From Candidatus Alistipes intestinipullorum (lineage in GTDB: Bacteria; Bacteroidota; Bacteroidia; Bacteroidales; Rikenellaceae): a DNA stretch of 35,825 bases. This document shows positions 20,057 to 21,556 of the stretch, in pieces. A program made the position numbers and the translations under genes. Under the pieces are notes generated by a model. It saw nothing but the letters and a program-made list of their open reading frames with translations. It made no database searches and was not told the origin of the DNA. Numbering within the stretch: position 1 is the first letter of the stretch; each line of letters starts with the position of its first letter. Location: assembly GCA_019113885.1 (NCBI GenBank), contig DXGO01000055.1, forward strand, positions 1 through 35,825, written 5' to 3'.

Positions 20057-20088
20057 TTTGGCCGTGCAGCCGAAACATCCTACCTTTG
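20057..20088 (+). promoter_or_regulatory. Promoter upstream of MATE leader: TTTG-N20-TACCTTTG
   Basis: TTTG 20057-20060, TACCTTTG 20081-20088. Confidence 0.7.
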
Positions 20089-20182
20089 CCCCTCGAAAGG
20101 AAGTTTTGTAATCCTCATCGGAGGGCAAACACATGCCGGATAAGATGACTGGGTAAAACCACGATGCTTGTCCGGCTTTTTT
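20089..20182 (+). promoter_or_regulatory. Structured leader RNA with kissing-loop potential and terminator; candidate guanidine-IV (mepA motif) riboswitch
   Basis: P1: CCCUC 20090-20094/GAGGG 20121-20125 and AGGA 20098-20101/UCCU 20112-20115 around an internal loop; L1 GUUUUG 20103-20108 is complementary to UAAAAC 20154-20159 in the loop of terminator stem GCCGGAUAAG 20135-20144/CUUGUCCGGC 20167-20176; T6 at 20177-20182; MATE gene follows. Confidence 0.6.
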
Positions 20183-20197
20183 CTTGTTTGGCGCACT

Positions 20198-21556
20198 ATG
20201 GAAAGAGACGCTCTCGATTTGGGTTCCCTGCGAGTGGGGACCCTGTTCCGGAAACTTTTTGTCCCTACGCTGCTGGGGATGGTCAGCATGTCGGCTGTGG
20301 CAGTTGTAGACGGAATCTTCGTTGGCCACGGTGTGGGTAGCGACGGTATCGCGGCCGTCAATATCTGTATTCCGCTGCTGATGATCTTTACGGGTATCGG
20401 ACTCATGGCCGGCGTCGGAAGCTCGGTCGTCTCTTCGATCCACTTCGCCCGTGGACAGGTCAAGGCCGCACGGATCAATGTTACGCAGGCGCTGCTTTTC
20501 GTGACGCTCGTTACTCTTCTCCCTGTGACCGTGATCCTCGCTTTCCCCCGTTTGACGGCATTGTTGCTTGGTTCCTCGGAGCATCTCCTGCCGTTAGTGG
20601 TCGACTATCTCATATGGTTTGTCCCGGGACTCATTCCGCAGTTGTGGATCGCCGTGGGACTCTTCGTCGTACGTCTCGACGGCGCCCCGCGGCTGGCTAT
20701 GTGGTGCAGCGTTCTTTCGGCACTGGTCAACGTCCTGCTCGACTGGCTTTTCATCTTCCCGCTCGGTTGGGGTGTCATGGGTGCCGCCTTTGCCTCGACA
20801 ATCAGCATTGCTACCGGCGGTGTGATTGTCGTTCGCTACCTCACGCACGGCGCCCGGACACTACGTCTCTACCGGCTCAAATGGAGCCGCAAGAGCTTTA
20901 GGCTCACGTTCCGCAACATCGGTTATCAATGTCGTATAGGTTCCTCGGCGCTGCTGGGCGAGATGACCATGGCCGTGCTGCTGTTCACCGGCAACCAGGT
21001 CTTCATGCGCTACCTGGGTGACGCAGGTGTCGGGGCCTTCGGTATCACCTGTTACTACATGCCCTTCATCTTCATGATCGGGAATGCCGTGGCGCAGTCG
21101 GCACAGCCCATTATCAGTTACAGTTTTGGTCGCATGGAGTGGCCGCGGGTCATTGAGGCGCGTCGTATCGCCCTGCTTACGGCTCTTGCCTGCGGGTGTC
21201 TGGTGGCGGCGTGCTTTATCGCGGTGCCGCGTCTTCTCGTGGCCCTCTTTGTCGATCCGGCGGACCCTGCGGCACAGATTGCCATCGACGGATTCCCGCT
21301 TTTTGCCCCGGGGTGTATCTTCTTTGTGGTCAACCTGGCTGCGATTGGCTATTTCCAAAGTCTCGAGCGTCTTGCTCCGGCCACGCTCTTTGCCCTGTTG
21401 CGTGGATTGGTGCTGCTCGTGCCGAGTTTCGTCTTTTTGCCGCAGCTGCTCGGGGTCTCGGGTATCTGGTTTGCCATGCCGCTCTCGGAGTGTCTGACTT
21501 TCCTGTCGATTGTCGGATACGTTGCCATGAGACGTCGGAGGTGTGCCGGGCGGTGA
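20198..21556 (+). CDS. MATE family efflux transporter (MepA-like)
   Basis: About 450 aa, 12 TM-like hydrophobic segments; LGSLRVGTLFRKLFVPTLLGMVSMSAVAVVDGIFVGHGVGSDGIAAVNICIPLLMIFTGIGLMAGVG. The ORF listing uses an upstream TTG (20168) lying in the terminator; ATG 20198 preferred. Confidence 0.92.
   Translation: MERDALDLGSLRVGTLFRKLFVPTLLGMVSMSAVAVVDGIFVGHGVGSDGIAAVNICIPLLMIFTGIGLMAGVGSSVVSSIHFARGQVKAARINVTQALLFVTLVTLLPVTVILAFPRLTALLLGSSEHLLPLVVDYLIWFVPGLIPQLWIAVGLFVVRLDGAPRLAMWCSVLSALVNVLLDWLFIFPLGWGVMGAAFASTISIATGGVIVVRYLTHGARTLRLYRLKWSRKSFRLTFRNIGYQCRIGSSALLGEMTMAVLLFTGNQVFMRYLGDAGVGAFGITCYYMPFIFMIGNAVAQSAQPIISYSFGRMEWPRVIEARRIALLTALACGCLVAACFIAVPRLLVALFVDPADPAAQIAIDGFPLFAPGCIFFVVNLAAIGYFQSLERLAPATLFALLRGLVLLVPSFVFLPQLLGVSGIWFAMPLSECLTFLSIVGYVAMRRRRCAGR

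Follow-up and report, generated by a model that had tools for sequence, protein, structure and literature searches.

A structured leader in front of a MATE gene

The DNA analysed here, a stretch of 35,825 nucleotides from Candidatus Alistipes intestinipullorum (hereafter the window, to which all positions refer), carries a gene for a MATE efflux transporter that starts with an ATG at 20198. NCBIfam MATE models also match the protein, below their cut-offs. The gene and the leader that precedes it comprise the following elements:

20057–20088, + strand: Bacteroidota-type promoter, TTTG (20057–20060), N20, TACCTTTG (20081–20088)
20103–20114, + strand: 5' strand of the outer antiterminator helices, GUUUU (20103–20107), bulge GUA, AUCC (20111–20114)
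20115–20119, + strand: 5' strand of P1, UCAUC, with its partner at 20144–20148
20120–20123, + strand: 5' side of the internal loop, GGAG, within an invariant block (putative ligand pocket)
20124–20137, + strand: P2 stem-loop, GGCA-AACACA-UGCC, with covariation across 40 diverse RNAs
20138–20143, + strand: 3' side of the internal loop, GGAUAA (putative ligand pocket), doubling as a portion of the terminator 5' arm
20144–20148, + strand: 3' strand of P1, GAUGA, pairing with 20115–20119
20151–20159, + strand: 3' strand of the outer helices, GGGU plus AAAAC, with substitutions in relatives that keep the pairing
20135–20176, + strand: intrinsic terminator stem, GCCGGAUAAG / CUUGUCCGGC, of which 20135–20137 and 20144 are also paired in the antiterminator
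20150–20152 / 20159–20161, + strand: apical hairpin of the terminator, UGG/CCA
20177–20182, + strand: T-tract of the terminator, T6
20198–21556, + strand: MATE efflux transporter gene, 452 aa (Pfam PF01554 MatE, 1.2e-27)

A first-pass annotation of this DNA had proposed the promoter, the terminator (GCCGGATAAG at 20135–20144 and CTTGTCCGGC at 20167–20176, followed by T6) and the MATE gene, and all three could be read as described. The TTTG-N20-TAnnTTTG layout is also found upstream of the RNA in many relatives, and transcription probably starts at about 20092–20096. The leader folds better than 200/200 dinucleotide-shuffled sequences (z = -4.0).

The annotation had further interpreted the leader as a guanidine-IV (mepA motif) riboswitch, with a 5' hairpin (CCCUC/GAGGG plus AGGA/UCCU) whose GUUUUG loop would contact UAAAAC near the tip of the terminator. 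This hairpin is the minimum-energy fold of the window sequence taken alone, and, judging from the -7 box, part of its left arm precedes or coincides with the probable start of transcription.

Distribution of the RNA

A first covariance model, built from four sequences, recovered the RNA in 23/180 genomes of the genus Alistipes (the window's own and 22 others), as well as in a single genome from a different family. A second model found it in 12 Bacteroidales genomes of genera other than that of the window, among 393 searched. An exact pattern of the core matched contigs in a collection of named genomes, at least 120 in all, from the phyla Bacteroidota and Firmicutes; as the search pattern itself fixed the shared core (P1 and the internal loop), invariance there is partly imposed. 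Among the matches listed were Alistipes, Bacteroides, Parabacteroides, Prevotella, Paraprevotella, Muribaculaceae and Odoribacter, and also Faecalibacterium, Megasphaera, Anaerovibrio and other Clostridia. In two Firmicutes orders, the RNA was present in 8/146 and 7/62 genomes. The pattern scan did not find it in a viral contig collection.

Weak matches of the first model in other Bacteroidota (L056–L058) were judged to be due to chance, because they lacked the conserved blocks and a MATE gene. A copy on the Bacteroides plasmid pCACC737_1 (L061, 2857–2917) has neither the 3' arm of the terminator nor a downstream transporter and is probably a decaying relic. Another sequence, MT837625.1 (L062), is labelled 'Bacteriophage sp.' and looks like a bacterial contig; it carries a MATE gene with the RNA, in which GUUUUG is changed to AUUUUA.

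MATE orthologs at 69–74% identity to the window's protein are preceded by the same RNA, and those at 43–55% identity are not. Among 75 proteins encoded downstream of the RNA, 68 were MatE and 3 were MFS exporters, and the RNA was associated with non-orthologous MATE subfamilies. No aminotransferase family and no SMR/sugE family was matched among these 75 proteins. At one locus (L234), the gene behind the RNA is not an exporter and was identified by eye as a putative Eis-type N-acetyltransferase.

Conservation and covariation of the structure

The RNAs gathered first (24 in all, 23 from the genus and 1 from another family) share blocks of 22 and 23 nt that are invariant or nearly so, whereas the sequence varies in the flanks and in the stretch that links the two blocks. 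GUUUUGUAAUCCUCAUCGGAGG and GAUAAGAUGACUGGGUAAAACCA (with one A to G) are invariant in these 24 RNAs. Because the region 5' of GUUUUG varies in the 23 other genomes while GUUUUGUAAUCCUCAUCGGAGG does not, the CCCUC/GAGGG hairpin is not conserved. A mini-hairpin, CCUC(AUCG)GAGG, was considered as a conserved 5' element and dropped despite its invariance, because compensated variants support the pairing of UCAUC with GAUGA instead.

The complementarity of GUUUUG (20103–20108) to UAAAAC (20154–20159) is real, but it does not represent a loop-loop contact: the two strands enclose UCAUC/GAUGA and P2 within one nested hairpin of the nascent RNA. The strand at 20103–20114, invariant in the 24 sequences, pairs with 20151–20159. 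This pairing characterizes the first of three types of the RNA. Type I, to which the window's RNA belongs, has the outer helices GUUUU/AAAAC and AUCC/GGGU, in which 336/340 and 271/272 cells, respectively, are paired across 68 RNAs; the 3'-strand variants AAAGC, GGAAC and AGAAC found in relatives all stay paired through G-U. Type II RNAs begin at about CUCAUCGGAGG and lack the outer helix; in type III RNAs, the core is preceded by AUC and the apical part reads AAUGGUG...UCAUU. The apical 20-nt segment out-folds shuffled sequences in all three types.

In the more distant RNAs, GGAG and GGAUAA are joined by a variable hairpin, P2, at 80/80 loci examined. Across 40 diverse RNAs, it showed 35 both-sided changes and a covariation score of 0.289, versus 0.158 for shuffled sequences (0/500) and at most 0.092 for slid controls. 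GGAUAA is invariant in nearly all first-copy RNAs. As P1 and the internal loop are both invariant in most first copies, the case for P1 pairing comes from tandem copies and a few variants. Two of the latter are compensated, CAAUC/GAUUG in L232 and UGUC/GACA in L221. The tandem second copies have entirely different but compensated P1 stems (UUCCC/GGGAA, AUAUC/GAUAU, UCUGCCC/GGGCAGA and CUGUAGC/GUUGCAG) and retain GGAG.

Second copies of the internal-loop hairpin were seen at eight loci (L093, L123, L129, L142, L184, L221, L223 and L227), and several of them lie within the apical region of the terminator. In these tandem copies, GGAG is combined with GGAUAA, GAAGUAA, GAUAAA, GACGUAA or AGAAGA. 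The terminal loop of P2 in type II RNAs is often (U)CGNA(A), for example in L105, L147 and L156; CGNA was matched in the P2 region of 25/45 type II and 3/68 type I RNAs, and a tertiary contact of this loop is possible.

These findings uphold the view that the MATE gene is preceded by a conserved RNA that regulates in cis and uses a terminator as its expression platform. They also caution against trusting the fold of one sequence, here the 5' hairpin and its 'kissing loop', where 20 relatives are enough to decide the structure.

Two predicted folds that exclude each other

The first predicted fold, an antiterminator that would also be the aptamer, consists of P1, the asymmetric GGAG/GGAUAA loop and the variable P2, to which type I RNAs would add the outer helices. 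The second is the Rho-independent terminator, whose 5' arm would be formed by the 3' strand of P2 and GGAUAAG. In the nascent window RNA, before the 3' arm of the terminator is made, P1 and P2 form with probabilities of 0.97 and 0.99, respectively; P1 is disfavoured in the nascent fold of some members (0.21 in L096, 0.13 in L147 and 0.13 in L105). For the complete window RNA with an assumed start at 20092, the energy model gives -30.5 kcal/mol for the terminator and -17.6 kcal/mol for the antiterminator, a difference of about 13 kcal/mol in favour of the terminator, with bases 20135–20137 and 20144 common to both states. The sequence comparison and the energy model support a competition between mutually exclusive aptamer/antiterminator and terminator folds.

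In this model, the layout fits an ON-switch at the level of transcription, which requires some factor to keep the antiterminator in place. We infer that this factor is a small molecule occupying GGAG/GGAUAA, because the loop is extremely conserved, the RNA occurs in tandem and is sporadically distributed, a linked regulator is lacking and several non-orthologous exporter families are involved. In the absence of ligand, the terminator, being far more stable, would win and the MATE gene would be off. If a ligand bound the GGAG/GGAUAA loop of the nascent RNA before the antiterminator had given way, the terminator would form later and the exporter would be switched on. The ligand could be a substrate of the pump or a compound that signals one, and the tandem copies found in Firmicutes may sharpen the response.

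The RNA has the hallmark of a riboswitch, a conserved core with stems that covary, found upstream of genes of several families. We consider it rather probable that the window RNA is a leader that attenuates transcription, its most probable identity being that of a small-molecule riboswitch from a class of which we found no description. The first-pass annotation was right to leave room for a new ligand class. With confidence slightly above even, we propose a broader reading, in which riboswitches with the GGAG/GGAUAA loop, single or in tandem, sense a toxic gut metabolite in gut Bacteroidota and Firmicutes and induce a MATE or MFS exporter.

Discussion

We considered the possibility that the RNA is a guanidine-IV riboswitch, or the published orphan variant of it named Gd4v, drawn differently. 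Guanidine-IV (mepA motif, GGAM-1) is built from two hairpins that touch through their loops, and it lies chiefly in front of sugE genes (PMC7736828). Gd4v is known from Bacteroidetes, Firmicutes and Actinobacteria, with enrichment in the gut; it precedes MATE and GNAT genes, has a hairpin atop its terminator, is presumed to be an ON-switch and is documented by an alignment of 395 sequences (PMC9788692). Occurrence in gut bacteria belonging to phyla shared with Gd4v, MATE targets, an apical terminator hairpin, the orphan status and the one putative acetyltransferase at L234 would all fit. Yet, the main target of Gd4v is a transaminase (PRK07324), which accounts for over 50% of cases (PMC9788692), against 0/75 here. 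Both published RNAs have a first hairpin with a conserved loop that pairs with loop 2, forming a pseudoknot in Gd4v, whereas here the 5' region varies, as do the stem and loop of P2, and what is conserved is the pairing within a nested antiterminator. Loop 2 of guanidine-IV contains a conserved G-U (G66-U67 in the L. lactis construct, G71-U72 in C. botulinum); the GGGU of our type I RNAs is absent from some of the others.

A scan against Rfam 15 gave no riboswitch match for the window leader, at gathering or relaxed thresholds, nor for the motif in 30 related loci, the presence of a guanidine-IV model in Rfam 15 not being established. All that the relaxed scan yielded was a snoRNA (21.5 bits, gathering threshold 75) and a fragment of U4, and we regard both as due to chance. 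Comparators for guanidine-IV, sought through SMR genes in plasmids and Clostridia, brought up only Guanidine-I, and no recognisable Gd4v comparator was found before aminotransferases in 10 genomes of one Firmicutes order. One structured leader with a T-rich end, about 120 nt before an aminotransferase ORF (L270), might be another regulatory RNA. A description of the motif was not found in the open-access literature, although supplementary files could still contain one. With the first hairpin unconserved, the supposed kissing pair nested and SMR/sugE genes missing among the 75 downstream genes, membership in guanidine-IV or Gd4v is not supported. As our class is set apart from both by the text descriptions in the papers rather than by their alignments, we leave a small residual chance that it is one of them.

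Slightly less probable still is that the hairpin serves as a protein-binding antiterminator of the RAT type, recognized by a BglG/LicT-like protein, in which case an unlinked RNA-binding protein would sense the toxic compound and keep the antiterminator folded. A hairpin with a purine-rich internal loop that overlaps the 5' arm of a terminator fits such a role, and extreme conservation of the primary sequence would suit any specific binder. Yet, no regulator gene of this type lies beside the MATE gene in the window, and the sporadic distribution (23/180 genomes in the genus, 8/146 and 7/62 in the Firmicutes orders), the varied MATE subfamilies and the tandem copies are better suited to a self-contained riboswitch. 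Ribosome-mediated attenuation through a tiny upstream ORF, GAUGACUGGGUAA (AUG-ACU-GGG-UAA, Met-Thr-Gly-stop, 20145–20156), is very improbable: this frame is present in 67/68 type I RNAs, but types II and III share the loop, P1, P2 and the terminator without it, their frames have no common length, and the pairing of AUCC/GGGU and GUUUU/AAAAC accounts for the same bases.

The small-molecule riboswitch remains our preferred reading. If it is correct, it would add an orphan class that is common among gut bacteria. Natural substrates are known for few MATE pumps of gut anaerobes, and a widespread RNA sensor placed in front of such pumps would provide a handle, testable in vitro, on the compounds that they export.

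Comparison with known regulatory RNAs

The in-vitro selected FMN aptamer has a purine internal loop of AGGAUAU / AGAAGG. It is described with the words 'A11 folds out, 11-nt bulge'. The loop of the window RNA, (Y)GGAUAA / GGAGG, coincides with it in GGAUA and G-N-AGG, but A25 of the aptamer would be a G here, and tandem second copies differ on the GGAUAA side. No association of the RNA class with flavin genes was found. YeeO is a flavin-exporting MATE protein with homologs in Bacteroidaceae (preprint, PMC12934955). Together with the aptamer analogy, this is a lead to the ligand rather than evidence; because of the resemblance, flavin-like or other planar compounds would be the first candidates, though we give a flavin itself only a poor chance of being the ligand.

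RAT hairpins of the BglG family are antiterminators that overlap the 5' arm of a terminator. The RNA described here shares this overlap, but neither a protein partner nor sugar genes were seen with it.

With guanidine-IV, it has in common the terminator expression platform, the presumed ON-switch logic and exporter genes including MATE (PMC7736828). It differs from it in having a single nested hairpin built around an internal loop, in lacking a conserved loop-bearing 5' hairpin, and in its targets, which are 68/75 MatE and 3 MFS instead of mainly sugE/Gdx. The HMP-PP riboswitch (thiS motif, PMC6478431), which has itself been compared to guanidine-IV (PMC8632094), differs in sequence and genes and is related by mechanism only: its conserved aptamer bases lie inside the terminator stem and ligand binding blocks the terminator, as we propose for the RNA in front of the MATE gene.
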